Below, piece after piece: positions 1,775-29,143 of a stretch of DNA of 64,000 nucleotides. The notes below the pieces were generated by a model, which saw nothing but the letters and a program-made list of their open reading frames with translations, was not told the DNA's origin and searched no databases. Position 1 is the first letter of the stretch. Each line of letters opens with the position of its first letter. The stretch is from assembly GCF_018919395.1 (NCBI RefSeq), contig NZ_JAHLME010000004.1, positions 310,001-374,000 on the forward strand. The letters run 5' to 3'. The position numbers were made by a program, and so were the translations under genes. This DNA is from Geomonas azotofigens. GTDB taxonomy: Bacteria > Desulfobacterota > Desulfuromonadia > Geobacterales > Geobacteraceae.

Positions 1775-3400
1775 TCAGGCGCTTGCCGGTCCGGCCGGGT
1801 GTTGCCCCGTCGCCGGGGTCGGCGGGGAGGACGCGGCGGCTTCCGCCTCCGGCATGGGAAGCAGGATGGTGAAGGTGGTCCCGGCCCCCTCCTGGCTTTG
1901 CACCTCGATATGTCCGCCGTGCTCCTGGATGATGCCGTAGGATACCGACAGCCCGAGGCCGGTCCCCTTGTTGGACTTGGTGGTGAAGAAGGGGTCGAAA
2001 ATCCGGTCCAGGTTGGCCTCCGGGATGCCGCAGCCGTTGTCGCTGATCTTGATGAAGGCCTGCCCCTGCACCGGGTCGATACCGGTCACCACCATGACCA
2101 TCCCCTCGCCGCGCAGGGCGTGCCCGGCGTTGACCAGCATATTCACCAGGACCTGCTCAATCTGGTTCGGGTCGATCAGAAGCGACGGGATGCGCCCCGA
2201 GTAGTTGCGGGCGATGGTGACGTCCTGGAAGAGGATCTGGTGCCGGACCAGTTCGAGCGCGGCGTCCGAGATCTCGTTGAGCGAGCAGGGGGTCTTCTGG
2301 GGCGGTGCGCAGCGGGCGAACTCCAGGAGCCCCTTGACGATGCCGGCACAGCGCTTGGTTTCCCTGAGCACGGTCTCGATGTCGTTTTTGAGGACCGGGT
2401 CGAGCTTCGGGTTGCTCTGGATCAGGGAGGCGAACACGAGGATCCCGGTCAGGGGGTTGTTGATCTCGTGGGCGATGCCCGCCACCAGCTCCCCCAGCGA
2501 GGCGAGCTTTTCCGAGCGGATCAGCTGCGCCTGCATGCGCGTGATCTCCTGGGTCCTTTGCTGCACCATCAGCTCAAGGTCGCGTCCCCACCCCTCCAGT
2601 TCCTCCCTCGCCTTCTTTAGGTTCACGGTCATGGCGTTGAACGAGTCGGCCAGCTCGCCCAACTCGTCGTGGGCGAAGCTGTGCACCAGGCCGTCCAGTT
2701 CCCCCCGCGCCAGCATCTGGGTGTGCTCCAGGAGCTCCCGCACCGGACGGTTCACCAGCTTCTGGGTGAAATAGGTGAGGCTCAGCGAGGTGAGGGTGAT
2801 CAGGAGCAGGGTCAGGAGCAGCATGCGACCGCGGTAGGCGTCCAGGAGGGAGTGCATCCGGTCCAGCGGGACCACCACGTCCAGCACGCCGAGCACCTTG
2901 AATTTTTCCGGGTGAAAGTGGCAGCTCGCCGTGTAGCAGCTCTCCTCGTTGTAGATGGCATTGGTGATGCCGAGGAACTCGGCGCCGGATTTGCCGTAGA
3001 AGCGGCGGCTGCGGTTCTTGGAGGGGGCGGTCAGGAGCAGTTCGGGGCCGCCGTGGCAGACGGCGCAGACCTCGGAGCGCTTGCCGAGCACGGTCCCGGT
3101 CTCGGCGTCGTCGGTGGAGAAGATGATGCGGCCGGTCTTGTTGATCAGGCGGATCCGCTCCACCCCCTGCTGGTTGCCGATCTCCTCGATGGTTTTGTAG
3201 AACAGGGGACGGTCGTCCCGCAGCATCTGGTTGTGGGTGGTGCGGATGATGGTCTCGGTGATGCGGTCGGCCTCGGAGATCGCCTCCTGCAGCAGGAGCC
3301 CCTTGAGGCTTCTCAGGTTCAGGTAGGCGAACAGGGCCATGGTGCACAAAAGCACGAGCCCCGTGGCAAGGGCAAGCTTGGAAATCAGGTTGAGGCGCAC
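1775..3400 (-). CDS. Sensor histidine kinase with two-haem periplasmic sensor domain
   Basis: Membrane histidine kinase, 541 aa. TM1 is about residues 8-28. The periplasmic sensor spans about 30-185 and carries a CAVCH motif (C112-H116) and a CX4CH motif (C155-H161), both possible c-type haem attachment sites. TM2 (about 190-210) and a HAMP segment follow, then a coiled coil, a HisKA domain with GIAHEINNPLTG and a HATPase with SDNGCGIP and GTGLGLSVSYG. The start is GTG, seven bases after GGAG. No response regulator lies next to it. The same sensor layout, with both motifs at the same residue numbers, recurs in the protein at 12775-13617. Haem-bearing PAS-like sensors are known in Geobacter chemoreceptors; that this one binds haem is inferred. 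Confidence 0.9.
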   Translation of the reverse strand: MRLNLISKLALATGLVLLCTMALFAYLNLRSLKGLLLQEAISEADRITETIIRTTHNQMLRDDRPLFYKTIEEIGNQQGVERIRLINKTGRIIFSTDDAETGTVLGKRSEVCAVCHGGPELLLTAPSKNRSRRFYGKSGAEFLGITNAIYNEESCYTASCHFHPEKFKVLGVLDVVVPLDRMHSLLDAYRGRMLLLTLLLITLTSLSLTYFTQKLVNRPVRELLEHTQMLARGELDGLVHSFAHDELGELADSFNAMTVNLKKAREELEGWGRDLELMVQQRTQEITRMQAQLIRSEKLASLGELVAGIAHEINNPLTGILVFASLIQSNPKLDPVLKNDIETVLRETKRCAGIVKGLLEFARCAPPQKTPCSLNEISDAALELVRHQILFQDVTIARNYSGRIPSLLIDPNQIEQVLVNMLVNAGHALRGEGMVMVVTGIDPVQGQAFIKISDNGCGIPEANLDRIFDPFFTTKSNKGTGLGLSVSYGIIQEHGGHIEVQSQEGAGTTFTILLPMPEAEAAASSPPTPATGQHPAGPASA

Positions 3401-9293: not shown

Positions 9294-11765
9294 ATGGTCA
9301 GCTTAACCATTGATGGCAAAAGCGTGCAGGTCGAGAAAGGTACCACCATACTGGAGGCCGCAGCCACGGTAGGGATCACGATCCCGACGCTGTGCTGGCT
9401 CAAGAAGGTCTCCCCCACCGGCGCCTGCCGCGTCTGCGCGGTAGAGGTCGCGGGTGTGGAGCGTACCATGACCGCCTGCAACACCCCGGTCAAGGAGGGG
9501 ATCGAGGTCACCACGGACACGCCCGCCCTGAGGGAAGCCCGCCGCAAGATCATGGAGCTCATGCTGGTGAACCACCCGCTGGACTGCCCGGTCTGCGACG
9601 CCGGCGGCGAGTGCGACCTGCAGGATTCCTGCTACGCGCTCAACGCGACCAAGCAGGATTACTCGGCGATCCTGGAGCGCAAGGAGATCCGCTACGACTG
9701 GCCGCTCATCGAAAGCGACCCCAACCGCTGCATCCTGTGCGAGAAGTGCGTCAAGGTGGACCACGAGGTGGTCGGCTGCGACGCCATCATGGTGGTCAAC
9801 AAGGGCGAGGACGCCATCATCGACACGGTGGACGGCAAGCCGCTCAACTGCGAGTTCTGCGGCAACTGCGTCGCGGCCTGTCCGACCGGCGCGCTGATCA
9901 CCAAGCCCTTCAAGTTCAAGGGGCGCCCCTGGACCTTCAACCGCATCCCCAGCGTCTGCGCCTTCTGCGGCGCCGGCTGCCAGATCGAGTACCACGCCAA
10001 GGACGGGCGCGTGGAGCGGGTCACCAGCGAGGACGACAGCTACAACAACGGCAACCTCTGCATCAACGGCCGCTTCGGCTACCGCTACCTGCACTCCCAG
10101 GAGAGGCTCTCCGAGCCGCTTTTGCGCGGGGACTCCGGGACCCTCGCCAAGGCCGACTGGGACACCGCCCTGGCCACCGTGGCCTCCAGGCTCAAGGAGA
10201 TCGTGGCGCGTGACGGCGGCAAGGCGGTGGCGGGTCTGGGCTCACCCAGGCTCACCAACGAGGAGAGCTTCCTGTTCCGCAAGATCTTCAGCGAGGGGCT
10301 CGGCAGCTCCAACCTCGACTCCGAGGCGGGGCTCGGCTTCGCCCAGGCCCAGGCCCAGATGCAGCGGCGTTTCGGTTTCACCGGCGCCAGCAAGCAGCTG
10401 GACGCTCTCGACGAGGCGCAGGCGATCCTGGTCTTTGGCTGCGACCTGAACGCCGAGGCGACCGGCGCCGAGTACCGGGTCATCAAGGCCGCCACCAAGA
10501 AGGACGCCCGCCTGGTGCTCGTGAACATGCGCGACGTGAAACTCCGGAAGTTCTCCAACGCGCACCTGAAGCACCTGCCCGGCGCCGAGCTCCAGGTGAT
10601 CTACGCCCTGATGAAGGGGCTCCTCGACGCGGGTGTGGCGCTTCCCGCCGGGGCCGAGAACATCAAGGACGGCCTCGCGCAGCTCTCCATGGACGAACTC
10701 TGCCAGCAGGCCGGCGTCACCGTGGCCGCTGTCGAGAACGCGGTGCGGCAGCTTGCCGGCATGACCCGCGTCGCCATCGTCTTCGGCGCCGACCTGATCA
10801 GGAGCGCCGACGCTTCCGCCAAGGTCGCCGCACTGGCCGACCTCGCCGTCCTCACCGGTTCGGCGAGCGAGCAGGGGGGCGGCATCTTCCCCGTCGACGC
10901 CAAGAACAACACCGTGGGGCTCTTGGACATGGGGGTCACCCCCGGTGCCGACGGCAAGGACATCTGGGGCATCGTCGAGGGGATCGAGCAGGGGAGCATC
11001 AAAGCCCTCTACCTCCTGGGATGCGACCTGGCCGGCTTCCCGGACAACCAGCGCATCCGCAAGGCGCTCGGCAAGCTTGAGCTCTTGGTGGTGCAGGACG
11101 TCTTCCAGGGGGATTCCCTCGATTACGCCCACGTCGTGCTTCCCGCAGGCGCCGCCGCCGAGAAGAGCGGTTCCTTCACCTCGCTCGACAACCGCGTTCA
11201 GGCCATCTTCAAGGCGGTGGACGCGCCCGGGCAGGCCAAGGAGGATTGGGCCATCCTGGCCGGCCTGTATGACAGGCTGACCGGCAACGTCCAGAGGATC
11301 ACCCCGGCGAGCCTCATGGAGGAGATCAAGGGCGCGGCCAAGGGGTACCAGCCTTTCGACGGATCCCGCGGCGGCGCCATCAAGGGGGGGAGCGCGGTGC
11401 GTACGGATGCCCCGCTGGCACCGATCGCCAAGCCCGCGGCGCCCGCGCAGCCGAAGTTCCAACTCCTGGTCGGCCCCATCGGGTTCCATAACGGCACCTC
11501 CACCACCCGTTCCGACGCCAACCTCGACGTGGCGCCGGCCGGCTTCGTGGAACTGCACCCCGCCGACGCGGCCGCGCTCGGCATCGCCCAAGGCGGCAGC
11601 GTGAAGCTTTCCTCGGGCAACGGTACCCTCACCGCGGCGGCCAAGGTCAGCGCCAGCGTCCAGCCCGGGCTGCTCTTCGCCCCGTCCCACTTCCGCGACC
11701 TCAACGCCAACGCGCTCCTCAAGGGGAACTGCAACCTGGTCGAGGTGAAGGTGGAAAAAGCGTAA
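9294..11765 (+). CDS. sfrA: NADPH oxidoreductase alpha subunit SfrA (NuoG/formate-dehydrogenase-like)
   Basis: 823-aa iron-sulfur/molybdopterin-fold partner of SfrB. N-terminal [2Fe-2S] ferredoxin domain (CWLKKVSPTGACRVC), a NuoG-type HPLDCPVCDAGGECDLQD segment, a 2x[4Fe-4S] ferredoxin (CILCEKC, CEFCGNCVAACPTG), then a molybdopterin-oxidoreductase fold that begins with CAFCGAGC. Where formate dehydrogenases have a Cys or Sec ligand after the conserved N-x-D, this protein reads NLDSEAGLGF, with neither. That fits a NuoG-like electron conduit rather than a formate dehydrogenase. The C-terminal 100 residues resemble the dinucleotide-binding domain. Followed by a terminator. Confidence 0.92.
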   Translation: MVSLTIDGKSVQVEKGTTILEAAATVGITIPTLCWLKKVSPTGACRVCAVEVAGVERTMTACNTPVKEGIEVTTDTPALREARRKIMELMLVNHPLDCPVCDAGGECDLQDSCYALNATKQDYSAILERKEIRYDWPLIESDPNRCILCEKCVKVDHEVVGCDAIMVVNKGEDAIIDTVDGKPLNCEFCGNCVAACPTGALITKPFKFKGRPWTFNRIPSVCAFCGAGCQIEYHAKDGRVERVTSEDDSYNNGNLCINGRFGYRYLHSQERLSEPLLRGDSGTLAKADWDTALATVASRLKEIVARDGGKAVAGLGSPRLTNEESFLFRKIFSEGLGSSNLDSEAGLGFAQAQAQMQRRFGFTGASKQLDALDEAQAILVFGCDLNAEATGAEYRVIKAATKKDARLVLVNMRDVKLRKFSNAHLKHLPGAELQVIYALMKGLLDAGVALPAGAENIKDGLAQLSMDELCQQAGVTVAAVENAVRQLAGMTRVAIVFGADLIRSADASAKVAALADLAVLTGSASEQGGGIFPVDAKNNTVGLLDMGVTPGADGKDIWGIVEGIEQGSIKALYLLGCDLAGFPDNQRIRKALGKLELLVVQDVFQGDSLDYAHVVLPAGAAAEKSGSFTSLDNRVQAIFKAVDAPGQAKEDWAILAGLYDRLTGNVQRITPASLMEEIKGAAKGYQPFDGSRGGAIKGGSAVRTDAPLAPIAKPAAPAQPKFQLLVGPIGFHNGTSTTRSDANLDVAPAGFVELHPADAAALGIAQGGSVKLSSGNGTLTAAAKVSASVQPGLLFAPSHFRDLNANALLKGNCNLVEVKVEKA

Positions 11766-12774: not shown

Positions 12775-13617
12775 TCACTTGTGCTGGCAGACGGGATCAT
12801 GCTCCGTCGCCTGGAAAGGCTTTTGCTCAATTTCGTTTAATTTGGCCCTGATAAAGTAGTAAGATTGTGCGATCTTGTCAAGCTCATAGGGAAGGTTCGG
12901 CGGCCGCGAAGTGCCGTTTTCTTCCTCGCCCCTCTCAGTGTACTCCTGCAGCTTCCTCATCGGAACCAGTACGATCATCTTTAACAGCGTGATAACGCCG
13001 GCGATGGTGAGGAACAGGGTCAGGATGGAAAAGATCAGCATCTGCATCTTGATCAGTGCCAGAGAGTGCAGCGTCGCTTCCTGTGACAGTCCGATGTCCA
13101 GCGTTCCCAGCACCCGCTGTTCGGCCGGGTGGAAGTGGCAGGCTGCGTTGGCGCATTCCGGCTCGTTGTAGATGGGCGCCGTTATGGCGAGGATCTCGTC
13201 GCCTGAGGCGTTCTTGAAGGTGCGCGCCTTCTGCATGGTCCCAAGCGTGGTGATCGGCGCCGCCTTCTCGTGGCAGACCACGCACCCCTCCGCCTTCTTG
13301 TCCACCTGGCGGTTCACCTCCTCGGGCTTCGAGGAGAAGGCCACCACCCCACGCTTGTTGAAGATGCGCACGTGCTGCACCCCGTTTTGGGCGCTGATGT
13401 TGCGGATGATGGCGCGGTTGAGTTCCGAGTCCGATTTCATCATCGCGTAACGGGTGGATTTGAGCACGATGCCGGCCAGGTTGTTGGCCTGCGTGATGGA
13501 ATCCCGGATCACCACCTGCTTGATGGCCCCGTACAGGAGCACGAAGCAGACCACCAGAAATCCGGTAACCACTATCCCTACGGGAACCAAGGCCCTTCCT
13601 GCGATCTTGTCGAACAT
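12775..13617 (-). CDS. Membrane sensor protein with two-haem periplasmic domain, no kinase
   Basis: 280 aa. TM1 (about 10-31), periplasmic domain (about 32-188), TM2 (about 190-215), then a HAMP-like segment (VPMRKLQEYTERG) and about 50 cytoplasmic residues with no HisKA, GGDEF or methyl-accepting domain. The periplasmic part has CVVCH (C112-H116) and CANAACH (CX4CH, C155-H161), exactly the residue numbers of the two motifs in the kinase at 1775-3400; the FHP after the second motif and the GTLD/GVLD strand are also shared. The ATG at 13617 follows GGAG; longer frames upstream lack the TM start context. It is cotranscribed with the HybA/HybB-like genes. Redox sensing is inferred. Confidence 0.85.
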   Translation of the reverse strand: MFDKIAGRALVPVGIVVTGFLVVCFVLLYGAIKQVVIRDSITQANNLAGIVLKSTRYAMMKSDSELNRAIIRNISAQNGVQHVRIFNKRGVVAFSSKPEEVNRQVDKKAEGCVVCHEKAAPITTLGTMQKARTFKNASGDEILAITAPIYNEPECANAACHFHPAEQRVLGTLDIGLSQEATLHSLALIKMQMLIFSILTLFLTIAGVITLLKMIVLVPMRKLQEYTERGEEENGTSRPPNLPYELDKIAQSYYFIRAKLNEIEQKPFQATEHDPVCQHK

Positions 13618-13776
13618 GGCTCCATCTCCAATCTGGGTCGCCGGCTTACCGCCGCCGTCAGCCCCGCTGTGCTGCATCTTACTTCCCTTGAAAGACCCTG
13701 CGAGGGCGCCGGCCTCGCGGGGACTGGCTCCGTCAGGTGCCTGTCCCCTTGAGAACCGGCTCGCCCCCTGCACCTG

Positions 13777-15132
13777 CTAATCGAGCTTGGTCATGCTGCT
13801 GTAGCTTGCCACCGGTACGCTGCTCGCCTCGCGCCGGCCCAGCGCCGCTGCCGGCACCGCCTCGGGCACGGTCTCCTCCTGCTCCTGACGGCGCCATTTA
13901 TAGAGGATCGGGAGCCGGTACAGGATGAAGCGGTAGACCACGATGTAGGTGGCGAAGATGGTCAGGCTGATGATCACCTCGCGCCAGGGCGGGATCTCGC
14001 GGTGCGGCAGTTTCCAGTTGAAGGTGATCATGGCGGTGTTGACCCGGTTCAGCACCACGCCGAACACGGTCATGAAGGCGCCCATGCGGACGATGGCCAT
14101 CTTCCTCGTGTGCACCCCGTAGGTCATCAGGGTGAGCGGAAGCATGAAGCCGACGATGATCTCGAACATGAACCACTGCCCCCAGCCGGTGTCCAGGTAG
14201 GCCCACTTGTTGTCGTGCGCGATGCCGATCAGCTTGATGGTGATGTAGGTGGCGATCCCCATGCAGGCGCCCTTGGCGAGCGACACGGTCACCTTGTCCA
14301 GTTTCTCGTGGAAGCGGCTGTCGCCGCGCCACGCCATGGTCTTGGCCACGATGGTGCTCACCGTGATCACCATGCACAGGCCGCCCGGCAGCGAGGATAC
14401 GAAGAAGTGCAGCCACTGGAACGAGGAGGAGTACCAAAGCGGGTGTACCTTGCCCGGCGCGTAGGTGAAAAGCGCGCCCAGCGCCCCCTGGTGCAGGGTC
14501 GACAGGATGATGCCGGAAACGGTGAGCCCCAGGGTGATCTTGCGGACGGCGCGCTTGCCAGCCGGGAAGCCGATCCATTCGAAGAAGGCGGTCGACACTT
14601 CGGCGACCTGCACCGAGAGGTAGGTGGCGACGTGCCAGGCCACCAGGAAGAGCACCGCGGCGGGACCGAAGGAGACCACCATCGGGTAGGGGAGGCGCCA
14701 GGGCTGCCCCAGGTCGGCCAACAGGTACATGACCGCGAAGAAGTATCCTAAAAGCCCGTTCAAAAGCGCCAGCCGCTCGATCGGCTCCAGGTCATGCCTG
14801 CCGAAGATCTCGCAGGCGGTACCAAGCTGGAAGCCCGAGGAGGAGAGCGGCACCATGGCGAAGAGGCCGAAACCCAGGAACAGCCCCCAGGGGTAGTCGT
14901 TGGAGCCGCTGGTGGCCCAGGCCAACCCGAAGAAGAACCGGCCGATCAGGATCGGGATGCCGACAGCGAAGATCGCCGCCAGGATCCAGTTGAAGGGGTT
15001 CCGGAAGGCCTGCAGCAGGTACTGGCTCGGGGTGAGCCCCAAAAGGAGCTTGTTGACCAGCGTGCGCTTCTTGCCGTCATCGTCGTAGGGTGAGTCCACT
15101 ATTGCCAAACCGTGCTGGATCATTTTTTTCAT
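13777..15132 (-). CDS. HybB/NrfD-family quinone-interacting membrane subunit
   Basis: 451-aa polytopic membrane protein with about ten TM helices, of the NrfD/HybB (PsrC-like) family that exchanges electrons with (mena)quinone. Recognisable parts: FFGLAWATSGSNDYPWGLF near TM2, LADLGQPWRLPYP, and the LSTLHQGALGALF stretch typical of HybB. The charged, Ala-rich C-terminus is cytoplasmic. Its start overlaps the stop of the ferredoxin gene (ATGA, 15129-15132), so the two are coupled. With the ferredoxin and the pentahaem cytochrome it forms a cytochrome c / Fe-S / NrfD complex of the Qrc or Cbc type. Confidence 0.9.
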   Translation of the reverse strand: MKKMIQHGLAIVDSPYDDDGKKRTLVNKLLLGLTPSQYLLQAFRNPFNWILAAIFAVGIPILIGRFFFGLAWATSGSNDYPWGLFLGFGLFAMVPLSSSGFQLGTACEIFGRHDLEPIERLALLNGLLGYFFAVMYLLADLGQPWRLPYPMVVSFGPAAVLFLVAWHVATYLSVQVAEVSTAFFEWIGFPAGKRAVRKITLGLTVSGIILSTLHQGALGALFTYAPGKVHPLWYSSSFQWLHFFVSSLPGGLCMVITVSTIVAKTMAWRGDSRFHEKLDKVTVSLAKGACMGIATYITIKLIGIAHDNKWAYLDTGWGQWFMFEIIVGFMLPLTLMTYGVHTRKMAIVRMGAFMTVFGVVLNRVNTAMITFNWKLPHREIPPWREVIISLTIFATYIVVYRFILYRLPILYKWRRQEQEETVPEAVPAAALGRREASSVPVASYSSMTKLD

Positions 15133-16046
15133 GGCTTGGTATCCTCCTGGTTGGAATCGGTATCATGCCCATGCTCACCGTGCTCCTGGTTCTTGCAGAG
15201 CAGGTGGATGCCGGAGAACAGCGCCGGCCAGATGGAAAGCACCATCGGCACCATGCCGAGGAAATCCTTCACGTTGGAGATGATGGGATCGTTCGAGAGC
15301 GTGGTGTCGAAGCCGAGCTTGTCGAACCCGACCGGGGCCAGGTAGAGCCAGCTGGTGCCGCCGACTTCCTTCTCGCCGTAGACGTGGTCCACGTAGCGGT
15401 CGGGGGTGGCGCGGATGCGCTCGTGTGCCAGCTTGAGCAGGTCGGCGCGGTGCCCGAAGGTGAGCGCTTCCTGGGGACAGATCTCGACGCAGGCCGGCGG
15501 TTTGCCGTACTTGAGCCTGGTGTCGTAGCACAGGATGCATTTCTTGACGACCGGGTTGGTCGCGCTGTCGTAGTCGTAGCCCGGCGCGTTGAACGGGCAC
15601 GCGATCATGCAGTTGCGGCAGCCGACGCAGACCTTGGAGTTGTAGATCACCGCCCCTTCCTGGGTCTTCGTATAGGCGTTCACGAAGCAGGAGGTGAGGC
15701 AGGCGGGCTCGTTGCAGTGGTTGCACTGCACCTTGCGGTACACGGGGCCCGACGGTTGCCCCTTCTGGTAGCTGTTCACCACCGTGTAGGCCTTCGCGGT
15801 CGGGCGCCGGTCGTGTTGGAATACCGACGGATCGTCGAAGGAGGTATCCGGTTCCGGCAGTTTCTGTTCCTTGTTGCAGGCAGCCTCGCAGCTGCGGCAG
15901 CCGATGCAGCGGGTGGTGTCGACCAGGACGCCCATGGCTTCGGGGTATCCCTCAAAGGAACCGCTGGCCCAACCCTTGTTGGTCTTGCCCAGCGCTATCG
16001 TGGTCCCGCCTATCAGGCACGCCTTCAGGAAGTTTCTTCGTTTCAT
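15129..16046 (-). CDS. HybA-like periplasmic 4Fe-4S ferredoxin subunit
   Basis: 305 aa. N-terminus MKRRNFLKACLIGGTT resembles a twin-arginine signal (RRNFLK), so the folded protein is probably exported. It has four [4Fe-4S] cysteine groups: CIGCRSCEAAC, CNHCNEPAC...C, CVGCRNCMIACP and CILCYD...CVEICP. A hydrophobic segment near residues 255-280 (FLGMVPMVLSIWPALFSGI) would anchor it, followed by a His/Asp-rich tail. It would carry electrons between the pentahaem cytochrome and the HybB-like subunit, with which its gene overlaps. Confidence 0.92.
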   Translation of the reverse strand: MKRRNFLKACLIGGTTIALGKTNKGWASGSFEGYPEAMGVLVDTTRCIGCRSCEAACNKEQKLPEPDTSFDDPSVFQHDRRPTAKAYTVVNSYQKGQPSGPVYRKVQCNHCNEPACLTSCFVNAYTKTQEGAVIYNSKVCVGCRNCMIACPFNAPGYDYDSATNPVVKKCILCYDTRLKYGKPPACVEICPQEALTFGHRADLLKLAHERIRATPDRYVDHVYGEKEVGGTSWLYLAPVGFDKLGFDTTLSNDPIISNVKDFLGMVPMVLSIWPALFSGIHLLCKNQEHGEHGHDTDSNQEDTKP

Positions 16047-16092: not shown

Positions 16093-16617
16093 TCATTCCT
16101 CTTCTGCATGGGCGGGTTTGGCTCCCTTGCGGTTCGTACTGTAGAAGGCGGCGCCCTCTTTTGTGCGCGGATGGCAGTCCTGGCACCCGGTCGGGCCGTT
16201 GCCCACCTTGGCGTGGCAGCCGATGCAGTTTTGGTGCATGGCCCCCTTGAGCCCCATCTTGTCGAGGTGGTAGCGCTGCTTGTCGGCGCGCTTGGCGGCC
16301 AGGGTCTCCGGGGAGAACGGGGTGGCCGAATGGCAACCCTTGCAGGAGACCACGGCGGTCGGGCTCGAGTTCTGATGGCAGCGGGCGCAGTTGGGGTCGA
16401 GGACCAGGGTGCCGGTGGTGTGGTGGTGGCAGTCGGCGCACTCCTTGATGGACTGGATGTGCTTTGCGTGGTTGAAGGTGAACGGGCTGAACAGCTTGCC
16501 GCTCTGGTTCAAGGTGATGGAGTCCGGCACCGGCGCGCACTGCAGCGCAGCAGGGGAGGACACCGATATGGCGCCTATGGAAAGCGCGGCAACTATAAGA
16601 TGTTTGTAAGAGGACAT
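16093..16617 (-). CDS. Periplasmic pentahaem c-type cytochrome (c3/c7-like)
   Basis: 174 aa with a signal peptide (about 1-24). Five CXXCH motifs start at residues 60, 77, 92, 131 and 145; extra histidines (H50, H53, H65, H66, H117, H128) can serve as distal ligands, as in class III cytochromes. The ATG at 16617 follows AGGAGAA at eight bases; the frame is open upstream without a signal-like start. Lies just upstream of the HybA- and HybB-like genes and would be the electron entry or exit of that complex. Confidence 0.9.
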   Translation of the reverse strand: MSSYKHLIVAALSIGAISVSSPAALQCAPVPDSITLNQSGKLFSPFTFNHAKHIQSIKECADCHHHTTGTLVLDPNCARCHQNSSPTAVVSCKGCHSATPFSPETLAAKRADKQRYHLDKMGLKGAMHQNCIGCHAKVGNGPTGCQDCHPRTKEGAAFYSTNRKGAKPAHAEEE

Positions 16618-16678
16618 GTCATGTTCTCCTGGCTCTGTAGTAGTGGGGAGTCGGACTCCCTTGCTGCTCGATTCGATG

Positions 16679-16855
16679 CTAGTGGCGCGCCGCTTCCTTG
16701 GTTTCATCCTGTTCTCTTTTGTGCAGGTAGCGGTAGAACATGGGGAAACCGATGAAGAAGGCTACGCAGATCAGGTATTCCACCCCTTTGATGTACTGGT
16801 AGAAATCCACCAGCGTGAAGACTTCCTTTATCTGTCCTATGGCGTCCAGTGTCAT
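16679..16855 (-). CDS. 58-aa single-TM protein in cytochrome operon
   Basis: A small open frame with an excellent ribosome site (AAAGGAG, eight bases before ATG at 16855). One TM helix (GVEYLICVAFFIGFPMFYRY) with a charged C-terminal tail (HKREQDETKEAARH). It sits between two supported genes of the same operon, about 40 and 60 bp from each. Tiny membrane subunits accompany other cytochrome/NrfD complexes (for example HmcD of Desulfovibrio), so a structural role is plausible; no homology is claimed. Confidence 0.75.
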   Translation of the reverse strand: MTLDAIGQIKEVFTLVDFYQYIKGVEYLICVAFFIGFPMFYRYLHKREQDETKEAARH

Positions 16856-17226: not shown

Positions 17227-17613
17227 TTAGGCCATCTGCAACTTGAGGCTCTCGAAGGCACACTGCACTGCCTGTCTGATCTCGGCGCGGTCCTCGGCGT
17301 TGACCGGTTTCAGCGCGTGATAGAAGATCCCCTCGCTCCTGAGCTTTCTGGAGAGCGGCAGCGAGGTGCCGGCGGCTATGAGGATGATGGACAGCTTGCG
17401 GTTGCACTGTTTCAGCAGCGGGATGATCTCCGATGCCGAGAACTCGTCGAACTTGGTCCCCAGGAGCACCACCTGCGCGGTTCTTTTCAGGATCCCGGAA
17501 AGGGCGCTTTCTATGGAGTTGGTGACGATCACGTTGTAGCCGGACTCGATGAACATCTCGGCCATCTGTTTTCTGCAGTCCATGTCTTCGTCCACGATGA
17601 GAAGTCCTTGCAT
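17227..17613 (-). CDS. Stand-alone pseudo-receiver domain protein
   Basis: 128 aa with the length and strand pattern of a response-regulator receiver. The acidic pair is present (VDEDMD), and the conserved lysine (YHALKPV), but at the end of strand 3 where the phospho-accepting Asp belongs the sequence is VVLLGTKFDEF: a glycine takes the Asp position. It has no output domain. The N-terminal half of the protein at 24493 is homologous and has the same substitution (VLLLGSDFD). Likely a protein-protein interaction module, not a phosphorylated switch (inference). Confidence 0.85.
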   Translation of the reverse strand: MQGLLIVDEDMDCRKQMAEMFIESGYNVIVTNSIESALSGILKRTAQVVLLGTKFDEFSASEIIPLLKQCNRKLSIILIAAGTSLPLSRKLRSEGIFYHALKPVNAEDRAEIRQAVQCAFESLKLQMA

Positions 17614-17722: not shown

Positions 17723-17974
17723 TCATAGGCTGGTCCTGTTGGTCTTGGCAGCCTCTTTCGCGCGCCGCTCGGCTTCGGTGGAAAAGATCCCTTTGAAGAT
17801 ACGGAAAAACATCGTGAGGCCGGGGACCAGCTGAAACAGGATCACCATGGCTACGAATGCGATAAAGACGATCGCGCCCAGCCCGAGCCCCGCGGGTTCC
17901 GTTGCGGCGGGAGATGCCATAGCCTGGGTTCCGTCCATCACCAGCGAGGCTGTCGTTACGGTTAGAACCTTCAT
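17723..17974 (-). CDS. Small membrane protein, first gene of left module (Q-x-x-P family)
   Basis: 83 aa: a signal-like N-terminus (MKVLTVTTASLVMDGTQAMA), one TM helix (AIVFIAFVAMVILFQLVPG), then FRIFKGI and a basic tail. ATG at 17974 follows AAAGGAG. It is the first gene after the sigma-54 promoter at 18040-18055 and matches the protein at 24198-24467, the first gene of the right module, in length, topology and the QLVPG...KGI pattern. Function unknown. Confidence 0.83.
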   Translation of the reverse strand: MKVLTVTTASLVMDGTQAMASPAATEPAGLGLGAIVFIAFVAMVILFQLVPGLTMFFRIFKGIFSTEAERRAKEAAKTNRTSL

Positions 17975-18039
17975 GATAGTCTCCTTTCCTTTGGTGTGCC
18001 TGCGAACCTGGTCAGCTAACCTGCCTGATGACCTTACTA

Positions 18040-18055
18040 AGCATCCAACGTGCCA
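18040..18055 (-). promoter_or_regulatory. Sigma-54 promoter of left respiratory module
   Basis: On the minus strand the bases read TGGCACGTTGGATGCT: GG and GC separated by ten bases, with an exact -24 box (TGGCACG) and a -12 box one base from TTGCT. It would start transcription near 18028, about 55 bases before the first gene (17974). Dyads for an activator lie 87 bp upstream. Confidence 0.85.
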
Positions 18056-18141
18056 TCCGTGAGAAAAAGTTATAAGTTGCTGGTTTTCCGTATGTTTGTT
18101 GGCGGATGCGTTTCCTCTTGGGGGCGTCCGGGGCGGTCCAA

Positions 18142-18160
18142 TGTATAGCCGCCCTATACA
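18142..18160. promoter_or_regulatory. Activator dyad A, TGTATA-N7-TATACA
   Basis: Perfect inverted repeat TGTATA (18142-18147), seven bases, TATACA (18155-18160); the arms extend one base further on each side. It lies 87 bp upstream of the sigma-54 promoter, a normal enhancer distance. The same dyad occurs at 28934 before the other sigma-54 cytochrome promoter. Confidence 0.75.
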
Positions 18161-18243
18161 TGCCGCGGCTCCCCCGTGAGCGGGCTTGTTGCGGCGGTCA
18201 GGAAAAACGCAATGATTTCGGCGTACAAGGGGGCGGGGCGCGG

Positions 18244-18262
18244 TGTATTGTTCCGGCATACA
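18244..18262. promoter_or_regulatory. Activator dyad B, variant TGTATT-N7-CATACA
   Basis: Same geometry as dyad A with one changed base in each half (GGTGTAT-N9-ATACACC is a perfect palindrome). It lies 102 bp from dyad A, closer to the divergent activator gene at 18534, so it may also serve autoregulation. Confidence 0.6.
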
Positions 18263-18374
18263 CCAATAAATTCGGGTGCATTGGCGCGCTCAAGGTCGGT
18301 CGTCGGCCGCAGTCGGAGCCGAAACGGCAGGTCAGTCACAGGCAATGCAGTGAAAGTATTTTCATGTCTTTTTG

Positions 18375-18403
18375 TTGACAGAGGACCCTTTGTGGGCTAT
18401 TGA
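18375..18403 (+). promoter_or_regulatory. Possible sigma-70 promoter for the first NtrC-type gene
   Basis: TTGACA (18375-18380), 17 bp, TATTGA (18398-18403). The -35 is perfect and the -10 weak. It lies about 130 bp upstream of the regulator gene. The rest of the 17975-18533 spacer holds the sigma-54 promoter and the two dyads described separately. Confidence 0.4.
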
Positions 18404-18533: not shown

Positions 18534-19940
18534 ATGCATATTCTTGTCGTTGATGATGAGTCTGTTATTAGGGATGGCCTGGCACGAATTCTCGAAGGAG
18601 ATTCCTTCACCGTAGATGCCGCCAAGAACGGGCATGCTGCCATAGAGCTTTTGCAGCAGAAACAGTTCGATCTGATAATCACCGACCTCAAGATGCCGGG
18701 CATGAGCGGGTTCGAGGTGCTGAACGCGGTCAAGATACTGCAGCCGGACACTCCGGTGATCATGATCACGGGGTTCGCCACGGTGGAGACCGCCGTCGAG
18801 GCGATGAAAAACGGCACCGTCGATTACATCGTCAAGCCCTTCACGCCTGAGCAGATCCTGGAGAAGGTGCATCTCGCGCTGGAACAGAAGAAGACCACGG
18901 TGGAAGATATCGTGGTGAAGAAGGAGATTGACTGCCACCACGGCTTCGACGAGTTCGTCGGGGAAAGCCGGGAGATGCAGAAGGTCTACCGCCGCATCAT
19001 CCAGGTCGCCTCCACCGACAGCACCGTCCTCATTACCGGCGAGAGCGGCACCGGCAAGGAGCTCGCCGCCCGCGCCATCCACAAGCACAGTTCCAGGCGC
19101 GACCAGCCCTTCGTCGCCGTCGACTGCACCGCCCTCGCCGAAAACCTCCTGGAAAGCGAACTTTTCGGCCATGTCAAAGGCTCCTTCACCGGCGCCGTCC
19201 AGACCAAGATGGGCCTGTTGATGGTTGCCGACGGGGGGACGCTCTTTCTCGACGAGGTCTCCAACATCAGCCTCTCCACCCAGGCGAAACTCCTGCGCGT
19301 GCTGCAGGAGCGCCAGGTCACCCCGATCGGCGGCACCCAGCCGGTCTCCTTCAACATCCACCTCGTCGCCGCCACCAACCGCAACCTGAAGACCATGGTG
19401 GCCGAGGGGAAGTTCCGGGAAGACCTCTTTTTCCGTCTCAACATCATCCCCCTGGAACTCCCCCCGCTGCGCGAGCGTAAAGGGGACATTCCGCTCCTGA
19501 TCCGCCATTTCATGCACAAGTTCGTCGAGGAGGTCGGCAAGGACCTGCGGGGCATCTCCCCGGAGGCGATGCACTTTCTGGAGAACTACGCCTACCCGGG
19601 CAACGTCCGCGAACTGGTGAACACCATCGAGCGCGCGGTGGTCCTGTGCGAGGGGGACGTGATCCAGAAGGAAAATCTGGAACTGGGCGAGGCGGCCGAG
19701 GTCTGCAGCACCGGGTTCGACGGCTTCGTCCCGACCAGCGCCGAGGCCCTCAAGGAGATGAAGCGCCACATCCGCGACCGCTCCGTCGAGAACGTCGAGA
19801 AAGCGTTCGTGATCCAGGCCTTGAAGCGCAACAACTGGAACATCTCCCGCGCTGCCGAGGAAACCGGCATGCTGCGCCCCAATTTCCAGACCATGTTGAA
19901 GCGGTTGGGCATCTCGGTTAAGGATTATTTCGGGCGGTAG
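18534..19940 (+). CDS. NtrC-family sigma-54 activator (receiver, AAA+, Fis-type HTH)
   Basis: 468 aa. Receiver domain 1-120 with VVDDE, the phospho-acceptor in IITDLKMPGMSG and YIVKPF; sigma-54 AAA+ domain about 140-370 with Walker A GESGTGKE, Walker B GGTLFLDEV and the sigma-54 loop as GSFTGA instead of the usual GAFTGA; C-terminal Fis-type HTH (NNWNISRAAEETGMLRPNFQ). No good ribosome site precedes the ATG. It is divergent from the left cytochrome module, with dyads A and B between, so it probably binds TGTATA-N7-TATACA (inference). G. sulfurreducens has a sigma-54 activator (BccR) controlling cbcBA; this gene or the one at 22468 could be its counterpart. Confidence 0.93.
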   Translation: MHILVVDDESVIRDGLARILEGDSFTVDAAKNGHAAIELLQQKQFDLIITDLKMPGMSGFEVLNAVKILQPDTPVIMITGFATVETAVEAMKNGTVDYIVKPFTPEQILEKVHLALEQKKTTVEDIVVKKEIDCHHGFDEFVGESREMQKVYRRIIQVASTDSTVLITGESGTGKELAARAIHKHSSRRDQPFVAVDCTALAENLLESELFGHVKGSFTGAVQTKMGLLMVADGGTLFLDEVSNISLSTQAKLLRVLQERQVTPIGGTQPVSFNIHLVAATNRNLKTMVAEGKFREDLFFRLNIIPLELPPLRERKGDIPLLIRHFMHKFVEEVGKDLRGISPEAMHFLENYAYPGNVRELVNTIERAVVLCEGDVIQKENLELGEAAEVCSTGFDGFVPTSAEALKEMKRHIRDRSVENVEKAFVIQALKRNNWNISRAAEETGMLRPNFQTMLKRLGISVKDYFGR

Positions 19941-22467: not shown

Positions 22468-23883
22468 ATGGCGAAGATCCTGATCATCGACGACGAGGAG
22501 ACTGTCTGCCAGTCCATGTCCCTGGTGGGCAAGCGTGCCGGGCACGAAACGAGCTGCGCTATGACGCTCGTCGCCGGCTGTCAGCTGGCGGCCGAAGGGG
22601 AGTTTGACCTCGTGTTCCTCGATGTGCGGCTTCCCGACGGCAACGGCCTGGAGATGCTGCCGCGCCTGGCGCAGGCGCCGTCCAAGCCGGAGATCGTCAT
22701 CATGACCGGCTACGGCGACCCGGCCGGCGCCGAATTGGCCATCAACAGCGGCGCGTGGGACTACATCGAGAAGGGATCCTCGGTGAAGGACATCACCCTT
22801 TCGCTGGTGCGGGCCCTGGAGTACCGCAAGCAGAAGCTCTCCCTCTCCGGGCGCCAGGAGGTGGTTGCCCTGAAGCGGGAGAACATCATCGGCAACAGCC
22901 CCGCCCTGACCGCCTGTCTCGATGCCGTGGCGCGCGCGGCGGTGAGCGACGCGGGTGTTCTCATCCTGGGGGAAACGGGGTCGGGCAAGGAGCTTTTCGC
23001 CCGGGCGGTGCACCAGAACAGCAAGCGCAGCGACAAGCCATTCGTGGTGGTGGACTGCGCCAGCCTGCCGGAGACGCTGGTGGAGAGCCTTTTGTTCGGG
23101 CACGAGAAGGGGGCCTTCACCGGCGCGGAAAAGGCGCGCGACGGCCTGATCAGCCAGGCCCATGGCGGGACCCTATTTCTGGACGAGGTGGGCGAGCTCC
23201 CCTTCGCCACGCAAAAGGCTTTCCTCAGGGTGCTGCAGGAGAGGCGTTATCGTCCGGTGGGGGGGCAGCGCGAACTGGAGAGCGATTTCCGTCTGGTGGC
23301 GGCCACCAACCGCAAGCTGAACCAGATGGCGGAGGAGGGGACCTTCCGCAGCGACCTCCTCTTCAGGTTGAGCACCTTTGTCATCGAGCTCCCCCCGTTG
23401 CGGGAGCGCAGCGAGGACATCAAGGAGCTGGCCCGCTATTACATGGACAAGTTCTGTGAGAATAACGGCCTGTCGCCCAAGGGGAGCTGCCCGGAATTCA
23501 TGGAGACCCTGCAGGCCTACAGCTGGCCCGGCAACGTGCGCGAGTTCATCAACACCATGGAGCGCACCGTGCTGACCGCCCGGGAGCAACCGGTCCTTTT
23601 CGCCCAGCACCTGCCTACGCAGATCCGGGTACAGGTTACCCAAAGCGCCGTCAACCGCCACGAGACCGCAGCCGCGCCCCCCGCCCAACTGGCGCCGCCT
23701 ACCCGACTCCCCAAGTTGACCGACTTCCGCGACAGCATCTATACCCAGGCCGAAAAGCAGTACCTCTGCGACCTGATGGTACTGGCCCAAAATGACATCG
23801 CCACCGCCTGCAACCTCTCCGGCCTTTCGCAGTCCCGCCTCTACGCCCTCTTGAAGATCCACGACCTGCACCGCTTGACCTAG
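22468..23883 (+). CDS. NtrC-family sigma-54 activator, partner of the hybrid kinase
   Basis: 471 aa. Receiver (IIDDEE, phospho-acceptor in VFLDVRLPDGNG; the conserved Lys is followed by Gly, YIEKGS); AAA+ domain with GETGSGKE, canonical GAFTGA and GGTLFLDEVGE; Fis-type HTH at the end (NDIATACNLSGLSQSRLYALL). Coupled to the kinase gene (gap 4 bp). Downstream lie two tandem TTCCTG/CAGGAA dyads and a sigma-54 promoter for the right module, which it may drive (inference). A BccR counterpart is possible. Confidence 0.93.
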   Translation: MAKILIIDDEETVCQSMSLVGKRAGHETSCAMTLVAGCQLAAEGEFDLVFLDVRLPDGNGLEMLPRLAQAPSKPEIVIMTGYGDPAGAELAINSGAWDYIEKGSSVKDITLSLVRALEYRKQKLSLSGRQEVVALKRENIIGNSPALTACLDAVARAAVSDAGVLILGETGSGKELFARAVHQNSKRSDKPFVVVDCASLPETLVESLLFGHEKGAFTGAEKARDGLISQAHGGTLFLDEVGELPFATQKAFLRVLQERRYRPVGGQRELESDFRLVAATNRKLNQMAEEGTFRSDLLFRLSTFVIELPPLRERSEDIKELARYYMDKFCENNGLSPKGSCPEFMETLQAYSWPGNVREFINTMERTVLTAREQPVLFAQHLPTQIRVQVTQSAVNRHETAAAPPAQLAPPTRLPKLTDFRDSIYTQAEKQYLCDLMVLAQNDIATACNLSGLSQSRLYALLKIHDLHRLT

Positions 23884-23919: not shown

Positions 23920-23955
23920 TTCCTGTCCCGCAAGAACGTTCCTGCCCGGCAGGAA
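23920..23955. promoter_or_regulatory. Tandem enhancer-like dyads TTCCTG-N5-CAGGAA
   Basis: Two 17-bp dyads in the spacer upstream of the right module: TTCCTGTCCCGCAAGAA (23920-23936, one mismatched pair) and TTCCTGCCCGGCAGGAA (23939-23955, perfect). Centres are 19 bp apart. They lie about 180 bp upstream of the sigma-54 promoter at 24135. No T-run follows, so a terminator is unlikely. Confidence 0.55.
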
Positions 23956-24134: not shown

Positions 24135-24150
24135 CGGCACCGTGGTTGCT
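24135..24150 (+). promoter_or_regulatory. Sigma-54 promoter of right respiratory module
   Basis: CGGCACCGTGGTTGCT: GG and GC ten bases apart with a full TTGCT at -12 and GGCAC at -24. It lies 48 bp upstream of the first gene (24198). The remaining 23884-24197 spacer contains only the tandem dyads at 23920-23955 and AT-rich sequence. Confidence 0.8.
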
Positions 24151-24492: not shown

Positions 24493-25206
24493 ATGGACGA
24501 ACGGGGAATCATCATAGCGGACCGCGACGCGGATTTCCGCAGGCAGGTAGCCGAATACTTCCGCAAGGCGGGGTATGAGGTTGAGACCACTGATTCAACA
24601 GTCCACGTGCTCTGCAGCATCCTGCAGAAGAAGACACCGGTGTTGTTGTTGGGAAGTGACTTCGACCAGAAGGTTTCGTCTTCCGACCTGATTCACCTGC
24701 TGAAAAAGTGCAACCGCCATCTGAACGTCATCATGGTCTCCGACGACCTGCCGCTGAGCCAGGCGAGGCAAGTACGCAAGGAAGGGATCTTCTACCAGGC
24801 CATGAAGCCGGTGGAAAACGGTGATACCGAGGAACTTGGGCTCGCCGTCGAATGCGCCTTCAAGACCTACCGCGCGAGCCGGCAGCAGGAGCGCATGGAG
24901 GCCGCGATGCGGCGCCGGGCACATCGGCGGGAGTCGGTGGAAAAGCAACCCGCCAGTGTGCCCAGGCGCTTCTCCTGGCTGATCGCGCTCTCCGTTCTCG
25001 TCTTCGGCACCAGTTTCCTGGCACTTTCGGCCGCCCAGAGCACCGATCGTGGCGGCAACCTGGGTATGTGGCTCTTCCTCGGATTCTGTGCGCTTTTGCT
25101 CGTGGCGCAGTTCTTCCCGGTGTTCAGGATCAAGTTGCCGCATCGCATCTCGGCGCAGCATGCCGCCAAAGAGCAGGCTGCCTCATTCGACAAAAAATCA
25201 TCCTAA
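24493..25206 (+). CDS. Pseudo-receiver fused to two TM helices
   Basis: 237 aa. Residues 1-125 are a receiver-like domain homologous to the stand-alone protein at 17227: ADRDAD acidic pair, then VLLLGSDFDQ where the phospho-Asp is replaced by Gly, and FYQAMKPV. A basic linker (about 130-155) leads to two TM helices (FSWLIALSVLVFGTSFLALS and GMWLFLGFCALLLVAQFFP). The second is nearly identical to the TM core of the small protein at 16895. So one protein here equals two adjacent genes in the left module. Not phosphorylated in the usual way (inference); function unknown. Confidence 0.87.
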   Translation: MDERGIIIADRDADFRRQVAEYFRKAGYEVETTDSTVHVLCSILQKKTPVLLLGSDFDQKVSSSDLIHLLKKCNRHLNVIMVSDDLPLSQARQVRKEGIFYQAMKPVENGDTEELGLAVECAFKTYRASRQQERMEAAMRRRAHRRESVEKQPASVPRRFSWLIALSVLVFGTSFLALSAAQSTDRGGNLGMWLFLGFCALLLVAQFFPVFRIKLPHRISAQHAAKEQAASFDKKSS

Positions 25207-27718: not shown

Positions 27719-28711
27719 TTAGCCGTGCGAGTGGCAGGAATCACAGTTGCCGTTTACCGTGAACGCGGACTTGCCGTCGTGGCAGGCCCCGCACGATTTG
27801 GCCTTTTTCATCTCGTCCATGGAGACGGCCTTGCCGCCGCGCTTGGTCGGGAAGGTGCCGGTGTGGCAATCCTTGCACTTGTACATGCCCAGATGGTTGC
27901 TGTGGCTGAACTTCACGTCACCGACGTCCGCCACCTTGAACTTGATCTCCTGGACCGGATGGCACTTGTCGCATTGCGAAACAGCAAACGCTTCCTTGGC
28001 GTTGTGGCAGGCCCCGCAGGATTTCCCCTTCTCCATCGCCGCCATGGTGACCGGCTTACTCGACCCCAGCGGGAACAGCTTGGTGTGGCAGGAACTGCAG
28101 CTGTAGATCTCGACATGCTTGCTGTGGCTGAAGACGGTGGGGCCGGTCTCCTTCACCTTGAAGACCACCTGCTTGGGCGAGGGATGGCAGCCGTCGCACT
28201 TGGCGACGCTGAACGCCTTCTTCCCGTTGTGGCAGGCGCCGCACGATTTCCCTTTCTCCATCTCGGCCATCGACACCGACTTGTTGGGACCGGTCTTGTA
28301 GAGGGAGTTGTGGCAGGCGTTGCACTGCATCGTTTTCAGGTGCTTGTTGTGGCTGAAGAGGACCGGCCCGGTCTCCTTCACCTTGAAGGTGATGTTCTTC
28401 ACCTGGTGACAGGCCGTGCATTTGGCGACGCTGAAGGCTTTTTTCCCGTTATGGCACCTGCCGCAGGATTTCCCCTTCTCCATGTCGGCCATGGTGTATT
28501 TCGCTTTGGCCGCGCGCGGATTCTCGTGGCACGACTTGCAGCTCACGTTCGGACTCTTCTCCGATTTCTTCTTCAGGTGCACTTTGTGGCTGAAGACGAC
28601 CTTGCCTCCCCCGTCGGTCTGGTAGGTGATGTCCTTCAGCTCGAGGGCGTTTGCTGCGGAAGATCCTACGGCTAGCGCGGCCAGGACGATGAACGCCGAT
28701 TTGAATCTCAT
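27719..28711 (-). CDS. omcQ: Dodecahaem cytochrome made of four c7 domains, OmcQ-like
   Basis: 330-aa periplasmic protein with a signal peptide (about 1-22). Twelve CXXCH motifs form four repeats of three: Cys at 58/83/98, 130/157/172, 205/232/247 and 279/307/323, with repeat length 72-76. Each repeat has the FSHxxHL and MEKGKSCGxCHNGKKAF pattern of triheme cytochrome c7. G. sulfurreducens has two such wire-like proteins (GSU1996 and GSU0592/OmcQ); the second is beside cbcBA, as here. Its own sigma-54 promoter carries the same activator dyads as the left module. Symbol assigned by architecture and neighbourhood. Confidence 0.88.
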   Translation of the reverse strand: MRFKSAFIVLAALAVGSSAANALELKDITYQTDGGGKVVFSHKVHLKKKSEKSPNVSCKSCHENPRAAKAKYTMADMEKGKSCGRCHNGKKAFSVAKCTACHQVKNITFKVKETGPVLFSHNKHLKTMQCNACHNSLYKTGPNKSVSMAEMEKGKSCGACHNGKKAFSVAKCDGCHPSPKQVVFKVKETGPTVFSHSKHVEIYSCSSCHTKLFPLGSSKPVTMAAMEKGKSCGACHNAKEAFAVSQCDKCHPVQEIKFKVADVGDVKFSHSNHLGMYKCKDCHTGTFPTKRGGKAVSMDEMKKAKSCGACHDGKSAFTVNGNCDSCHSHG

Positions 28712-28842: not shown

Positions 28843-28858
28843 AGCATTAGCCGTGCCT
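28843..28858 (-). promoter_or_regulatory. Sigma-54 promoter of the dodecahaem cytochrome gene
   Basis: The minus strand reads AGGCACGGCTAATGCT: GG and GC ten bases apart, -24 box GGCACG and -12 box ATGCT, the same -12 as the promoter at 18040. It lies about 130 bp upstream of the start codon. Confidence 0.8.
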
Positions 28859-28933: not shown

Positions 28934-28952
28934 TGTATAAAGCTGCTATACA
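28934..28952. promoter_or_regulatory. Activator dyad C, TGTATA-N7-TATACA
   Basis: Perfect dyad TGTATA (28934-28939), seven bases, TATACA (28947-28952), 76 bp upstream of the sigma-54 promoter. Matches dyad A exactly in both half-sites. Confidence 0.75.
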
Positions 28953-29033
28953 GCGCGTCGGGGCTTTTGCTAGCAAGTCATCGAAAAGACATATGTTTCT
29001 GACGAGGACCTGGCGACGCCTGATGGCGGTTGC

Positions 29034-29052
29034 TGTATAGCAAACATATACG
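29034..29052. promoter_or_regulatory. Activator dyad D, TGTATA-N7-TATACG
   Basis: Same geometry as dyad C with one changed end base, 100 bp further upstream. Dyads A and B are 102 bp apart, so the pair spacing is conserved. Confidence 0.62.
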
Positions 29053-29087
29053 AACCGAGGCGGTCCACCGTAGCTTGAAGAGGCGAC

Positions 29088-29118
29088 AAAAAAGGCCGCG
29101 GGTGCAAAGCCCGCGGCC
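29088..29118 (-). terminator. Rho-independent terminator of the AspT-type gene
   Basis: On the minus strand GGCCGCGGG, a 7-base loop, CCCGCGGCC, then six T. It ends the transcript of the transporter gene at 29144. Confidence 0.9.
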
Positions 29119-29143
29119 CCCATTCACGGTTGGGGAGGTGGTG

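Follow-up and report, generated by a model that had tools for sequence, protein, structure and literature searches.

Paired TGTAT-N9-ATACA dyads as candidate enhancers of a conserved sigma-54 activator at electron-transfer promoters of Geomonas azotofigens and its relatives

Two sigma-54-like promoters in the window (the whole 64,000-nucleotide stretch of DNA that was analysed, from the metal-respiring soil bacterium Geomonas azotofigens) are each preceded by a pair of TGTAT-N9-ATACA dyads about 100 bp apart. Taking the sequence evidence jointly, we consider it very probable that both pairs are enhancers of one sigma-54 activator, EBP1, driving the left respiratory operon and an omcQ-like cytochrome gene. 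The sites, the promoter-like elements, their conservation, the linkage of the sites to EBP1 and not to a second activator (EBP2), and the co-inheritance of EBP1 with a periplasmic histidine kinase are all seen in the sequences. What is new is the operator as defined here, its separation from EBP2, the targets outside the locus and the di-haem kinase inherited together with EBP1.

Dyad pairs and sigma-54-like promoters in the window

The sites and promoters, in window coordinates, are:

18142..18160, no strand: dyad A, candidate proximal EBP1 operator of the left promoter; TGTATAGCCGCCCTATACA, 0 mismatches to TGTATA-N7-TATACA
18244..18262, no strand: dyad B, candidate distal EBP1 operator of the left promoter; 2 mismatches to TGTATA-N7-TATACA, perfect in TGTAT-N9-ATACA
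28934..28952, no strand: dyad C, candidate proximal EBP1 operator of the omcQ-like promoter; 0 mismatches
29034..29052, no strand: dyad D, candidate distal EBP1 operator of the omcQ-like promoter; 1 mismatch, one change from the core
18041..18055, minus strand: sigma-54-like promoter of the left respiratory operon; TGGCACGTTGGATGC, 97 bp from the centre of dyad A to the first G of GG
28844..28858, minus strand: sigma-54-like promoter of the omcQ-like gene; AGGCACGGCTAATGC, 86 bp from the centre of dyad C to the first G of GG

The four dyads lie where they had been predicted and are the only window matches to TGTATA-N7-TATACA at up to two mismatches, compared with a mean of 0.10 matches (maximum 1) in dinucleotide shuffles of the window. 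The spacings are also as predicted, at 102 bp for A and B and 100 bp for C and D. The original prediction described the nearer dyad of each pair as perfect and the farther as altered. This holds for the motif as then written (A and C perfect, two changes in B and one in D), but B is perfect under the refined core TGTAT-N9-ATACA. That core reflects 56 distinct sites upstream of EBP1 orthologues, selected by having at most one mismatch to TGTAT-N9-ATACA, in which positions 6 and 14 of the 19-mer are free to vary; the sole deviation from it among the four dyads is a C in place of the first T of D.

A scan of the genome (4.97 Mb, 18 contigs) found exact matches to TGTAT-N9-ATACA at A, B and C only, with none for the reversed control. 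TGTATA-N7-TATACA occurs twice without mismatch (A and C), and dyad D plus one other site (C1:1015906) are added at one mismatch. Enrichment of this pattern in the genome appeared at up to one mismatch (4 sites vs 0 for the reversed control) but not at up to two (19 vs 26, no excess), and the weak two-mismatch matches are therefore uninformative. The additional site at C1:1015906 lies, by eye, between transporter and regulator genes and has no partner dyad.

Dyads A and B are positioned between the left operon and the divergent EBP1 gene, and C and D are flanked by the omcQ-like cytochrome gene and, on the other side, by the 3' end of a gene for a transporter. Mechanically called open reading frames overlap A and B (17723-18259) and D (29030-29428); by our reading all four dyads are intergenic. 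Both arms of dyad A and the core arms of dyad B are identical in 13/13 aligned sequences (window included), and in alignments at both promoters the dyads form conserved islands within diverged DNA, with arms kept across genera and spacers free.

Both promoter-like elements have GG-N10-GC at -24/-12, closely resemble TGGCACG-N4-TTGC (10.8 and 10.1 on our own weights, for which the maximum is 11.4) and are conserved in the alignments. Elsewhere in the window, sigma-54-like sites scoring at least 9.9 at 54295 (plus strand), 58831 (plus strand) and 54311 (minus strand) have no dyad nearby.

Linkage of the dyads to EBP1

The divergent gene next to dyad B encodes the proposed binder:

18534..19940, plus strand: EBP1, divergent activator of 468 aa with receiver, sigma-54 AAA+ and Fis-type HTH domains; proposed binder of A-D
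18375..18403, plus strand: probable sigma-70 promoter of EBP1 (TTGACA, 17 bp, TATTGA); TTGACA identical in 13/13 aligned sequences, -10 box assigned by eye

EBP1 matches PF00072, PF00158 and PF02954 and is 99% identical to its copy in Geomonas diazotrophica (locus L129). Using a threshold of at least 63% identity, below which there was a clear gap, we found 48 orthologues in 47 of 58 genomes. Their AAA+ loop reads GSFTGA in 44/48 and GAFTGA in the other 4, and the residues RPNFQ of the putative recognition helix are identical in all 48. An inverted repeat, GTGAAAGTATTTTCATG, lies at 18350-18366, immediately upstream of the EBP1 -35 box, and its GTGAA and TTTTCATG are identical in 13/13 aligned sequences.

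We scored dyads in 20-kb loci at up to two mismatches, with a pair defined as two sites 85-125 bp apart. Within 500 bp upstream of EBP1, at least one dyad was present at 38/48 loci (a pair at 31, a single dyad at 7) and none at 10, counts that, here and below, are not independent across loci and genomes because the genomes are related. Other 500-bp tiles of the same loci contained a dyad in 31/1621 cases and a pair in 10/1621, and shuffled upstream regions gave a mean of 1.35/48 with a dyad and 0/48 with a pair. The motif was also recovered without bias: when exact palindromes of 5 bp, with any gap from 0 to 20, were counted in 28 EBP1 upstream regions, TGTAT-N9-ATACA ranked first (16/28 loci), while the best palindrome in four other tiles of those loci reached 7. 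In 31/31 paired loci, a sigma-54-like site with a score of at least 9.0 (maximum 11.4) follows the pair at 83-118 bp on its far side from EBP1; the side facing EBP1 has one in 1/31, and random positions in 38/620.

The association extends to whole genomes, where dyads at up to one mismatch outnumbered the reversed control in the 47 genomes with EBP1 (213 vs 113) and not in the 11 without it (12 vs 33). Paralogous activators had no dyad at up to two mismatches in 16 loci (69,216 bases) from four genomes.

Some loci depart from the pattern. The upstream dyad is single in L097, L104, L105, L115, L117, L119 and L120. Of the ten loci with none in the 500 bp upstream, L098 and L099 are cases in which EBP1 has moved and one dyad is left by the module promoter, adjoining the other kinase gene. 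L113 and L116 have pairs elsewhere in the locus; the dyad lies kilobases from EBP1 in L111 and L118; and L107, L109, L110 (family f2) and L121 have none anywhere in the locus at up to two mismatches.

A second activator with a different candidate operator

The cluster holds a second sigma-54 activator, followed by a separate set of sites:

22468..23883, plus strand: EBP2, second sigma-54 activator (Pfam), not a likely binder of A-D
23920..23955, no strand: tandem TTCCTG-N5-CAGGAA dyads, the first copy with one change; proposed EBP2 operator
24135..24149, plus strand: conserved sigma-54-like promoter of a cbcBA-like operon (8 aligned Geomonas sequences); proposed EBP2 target

EBP2 orthologues were found in 21/58 genomes, all of them among the 47 with EBP1, and dyad pairs are present in genomes without EBP2. 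Seven loci hold EBP2 separately from EBP1; no pair was found in them (0/7), only one isolated two-mismatch match. TTCCTG-N5-CAGGAA, at up to one mismatch, lies between EBP2 and the cbcBA-like operon in 8/8 aligned Geomonas sequences, with a second copy preceding the first in 5/8. It also follows EBP2 in 4/7 EBP2-alone loci (L123, L124, L125 and L127), and L126 has one perfect copy within a cbcA-homologous stretch; it is absent from L122 and L128, and from L098, where EBP2 lies beside EBP1. We propose this sequence as a candidate second operator, for EBP2, less firmly than we assign TGTAT-N9-ATACA to EBP1.

The original prediction had proposed a single enhancer-binding protein, with the activator at 18534 as the best candidate, and the contrast between 31/48 EBP1 loci and 0/7 EBP2-alone loci supports this. 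As the pairs track EBP1, none occurs at EBP2-alone loci and EBP2 has a different candidate operator, the assignment to EBP1 is well supported, and we rejected EBP2 as the binder of A-D.

Distances between dyads and promoters

The nearer dyad edge is 87 bp from the -24 box for A and 76 bp for C, and the distal dyad centres are 199 bp (B) and 186 bp (D) from the first G of GG. Among relatives, 28 of 31 collapsed values for the distance within a pair fall at 100-107 bp (the remainder being 90, 93 and 112), and the proximal dyad is mostly 83-119 bp from GG, with a strong mode at 107-108 and doubtful entries at 71 and 136. At the homologous omcQ promoter the distance is 86-88 bp in the main group of Geomonas and 107-109 bp in Citrifermentans and others, about two turns apart.

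The 11-bp difference between A and C had been predicted, with the remark that it is about one helical turn. The difference is correct; helical phasing across relatives is compatible with the distances and not established by them. We collapsed the distances by hand to 39, one per clade and promoter, with promoter scores of at least 9.0 except L168. The doubtful values 71, 103, 115 and 136 were retained, and six were left out (L088, 69; L095, 132; L100, 61; L106, 59; L113, 40; L098, 116) because the dyad faced away, was distal or overlapped another. All 39 gave R 0.61 at 11 bp, a strong periodicity that is due to the 107-108 mode alone: without the modal 106-109 class (19 entries) the remaining 20 showed no significant periodicity (at 10.5-11 bp, p 0.05-0.14). 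Scanning periods of 6-20 bp gave the best fit at 12.0 with the mode and at 8.2 without it. Given these p values and a non-helical best period, we rejected helical quantisation and limit the claim to a mode at 107-108.

Wider pairs were also seen. The two sites in L063 are 134 apart. In L203 (G027:C1:460000-471000, at about 10404-10654), dyads 134 bp apart precede a sigma-54-like promoter near which we recognised no target gene, and in L147 (G026:C1, near a contig end) a perfect dyad and a second one 144 bp away lie upstream of an open reading frame with three CxxCH motifs.

Genes behind the dyad promoters

In the window the genes behind the two promoters are:

17723..17974, minus strand: first left-operon gene, encoding a small protein with a single apparent TM segment; its homologues lie behind dyad pairs in G043 and G052
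17227..17613, minus strand: receiver-like protein RR128, left operon
16093..16707, minus strand: five-haem c-type cytochrome, left module
15129..16046, minus strand: iron-sulphur protein; best NCBIfam match HmcB, just below cut-off
13777..15132, minus strand: NrfD-type membrane subunit; best NCBIfam match HmcC, below cut-off
27719..28711, minus strand: omcQ-like 12-haem cytochrome, behind the C/D promoter

The name omcQ for the last gene is that of the original prediction and is presumptive. The receiver-like proteins at 17227-17613 and 24493-25206 read, by eye, LLGTKFDE or LLGSDFDQ at the usual Asp phosphoacceptor, and the receiver-like proteins of both modules are possibly pseudo-receivers.

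The module divergent from EBP1 varies. Outside genus g1 (the group holding Geomonas and Citrifermentans), 29 EBP1 loci have cbcA homologues (19) or the five-haem/iron-sulphur/NrfD module (6) on this side, or are arranged otherwise (4); the 19 loci within g1 have the five-haem module (13), cbcA (4) or neither (2). The pair stays with the promoter while the genes behind it change. Outside the EBP1 upstream region, pairs precede omcQ homologues in 15 loci and also occur in L113 and L116.

Off-locus targets were sought at up to one mismatch in 8 of the 58 genomes, with loci read for part of the matches. G043 and G052 have pairs with sigma-54-like promoters on contigs other than that of EBP1. Behind these promoters are small-protein homologues in both genomes and, in G043, an RR128 homologue as well; tblastn with 15 window proteins found no cytochrome in about 10 kb of sequence read there. 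A third off-contig pair, in G054, runs into the contig end. In G046 one pair lies about 10 kb from EBP1, before an RR128/five-haem module, and a second precedes two small proteins.

A co-inherited di-haem kinase

Two proteins encoded in the window have related periplasmic sensors:

1775..3400, minus strand: periplasmic histidine kinase with di-haem motifs (sensor, HAMP, HisKA, HATPase), probable EBP1 partner
12775..13773, minus strand: sensor with CxxCH and CxxxxCH and no kinase, in the respiratory operon

Over 224 aa, the kinase-less sensor shares 31% identity with the kinase's sensor half. In five EBP1 neighbourhoods that we read, the next gene was a histidine kinase with haem motifs in its periplasmic domain. 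The one from L101, which has CxxCH, CxxxxCH, HAMP, HisKA and HATPase, served as search query. With presence defined as E below 1e-120, the kinase was found in 46/47 EBP1 genomes (missing in G049) and in 0/11 others (Fisher p 5e-11); it is split over two contigs in G025, and partial with one stop in G051. Of the 46 genomes, 20 have the kinase within 500 bp of EBP1, all of them among the 27 outside genus g1. Another 18 have it farther off but within 20 kb, at 2.2 kb in G056 and at 14-15 kb in 17 genomes of genus g1. In the other 8 it is on a different contig, the g1 cases being G008 and G015. Because the two genes of genus g1 are 14-15 kb apart or on different contigs, their pairing rests on descent. 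From this co-inheritance the di-haem kinase is likely the partner of EBP1.

We modelled the sensor domain from a 12-sequence alignment. The model is of low confidence (mean pLDDT 63.6), and it matches Cache/PDC-type kinase sensors (WalK, DctB and CitA), with GSU0935 (3b42) at rank 15; by sequence, the only match among solved structures had E 0.46. The kinase would sense redox potential. Nitric oxide is a live alternative signal, since NO-sensor properties are reported, in the part of a 2026 preprint available to us, for a family of single-haem Cache domains joined to signalling modules (sCache_heme, PMC12889525).

Proposed mechanism and alternatives

We infer binding, phosphorylation, looping and the redox signal as follows. 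EBP1 would be made, probably from its sigma-70 promoter, and the periplasmic kinase with di-haem motifs (1775-3400) would probably phosphorylate it. Phosphorylated dimers would sit on both TGTAT-N9-ATACA dyads of a pair, about 100 bp from each other, assemble there and reach sigma-54 polymerase by looping. In this way they would activate the left five-haem/iron-sulphur/NrfD operon as well as the gene for the omcQ-like cytochrome. Judged from sequence, the conserved enhancer architecture is real and of a known kind.

The main competitor attributes the dyads to an unlinked regulator, activator or repressor, that co-occurs with EBP1 by happenstance. Binding by EBP1 is a prediction and 10/48 EBP1 loci have no nearby site, which leaves room for such a regulator, but we consider it improbable: the sites go with EBP1, 31/31 paired loci stand at enhancer distance from sigma-54-like promoters, and the excess of dyads is confined to genomes with EBP1. 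Binding by EBP2 (22468) instead of EBP1 is less probable by a good measure. EBP2 is likewise a sigma-54 activator of the same cluster, but it occurs in 21/58 genomes, all with EBP1, while pairs occur without it; it has no pair at any of the seven loci where it stands alone, and it has its own candidate tandem operator, TTCCTG-N5-CAGGAA. That the dyads are functionless palindromes of chance or composition is hardly credible. The half-sites are short and the genome has no excess at up to two mismatches, but shuffling predicts 0.10 sites where there are four, and the conservation of arms across genera with free spacers speaks strongly against it.

With EBP1 as the binder, a wider and rather speculative reading, which we hold only tentatively, is an order-wide potential switch. 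The di-haem kinase would read periplasmic redox potential and phosphorylate EBP1, which would bridge dyads about ten turns apart and control whichever menaquinol-oxidising cytochrome module sits behind them, while the kinase-less di-haem sensor would feed back on the kinase. Relatives of Geobacter swap inner-membrane cytochromes as acceptor potential falls, and to our knowledge no sensor has been identified for this change. Little is known, according to the part of one report available to us (PMC5585712), about how the many histidine kinases and response regulators of G. sulfurreducens act in extracellular respiration. Here a candidate operator, activator and di-haem sensor kinase are named together with putative target promoters, and the activator is set apart from its neighbour EBP2. 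As the layout recurs in related genera, control of the electron-transfer genes becomes testable.

Comparison with known systems

EBP1 resembles NtrC-class enhancer-binding proteins in its receiver, its AAA+ domain with a GSFTGA/GAFTGA loop and its Fis-type HTH, and the palindromic sites upstream of GG-N10-GC promoters are likewise of that class. The arrangement differs in that about ten helical turns separate the dyads of a pair, with the pair kept across genera, whereas in textbook cases such as NtrC the site pairs are much closer together. Sites for such activators are generally about 100-150 bp upstream of the promoter, as stated in the part of a review available to us (PMC7057263).

The closest named counterpart comes from synteny. 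In genus g10 (L101 and L102), the genes divergent from EBP1 are homologues of those for the small protein, RR128, cbcA, cbcB and omcQ, an order that we take to match GSU0592-0598 of Geobacter sulfurreducens. BccR of that organism reportedly helps to induce cbcBA at low potential (work by Joshi, Chan and Bond in 2021), and on this synteny we tentatively identify EBP1 with BccR. The window differs from the BccR locus in that its EBP1-side operon is the five-haem/iron-sulphur/NrfD module, and its cbcBA-like genes follow EBP2. GSU059x, OmcQ and GSU1648 are absent from the main text, in the part available to us, of a paper on the RpoN regulon of G. sulfurreducens (PMC2725144).

The kinase sensor resembles the haem-c Cache/PAS-like sensors (GSU0935, GSU0582) in being periplasmic with a covalent-haem motif, and the low-confidence model suggests a possible fold match. 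It differs from them in having two haem motifs (CxxCH and CxxxxCH) and a fused kinase.
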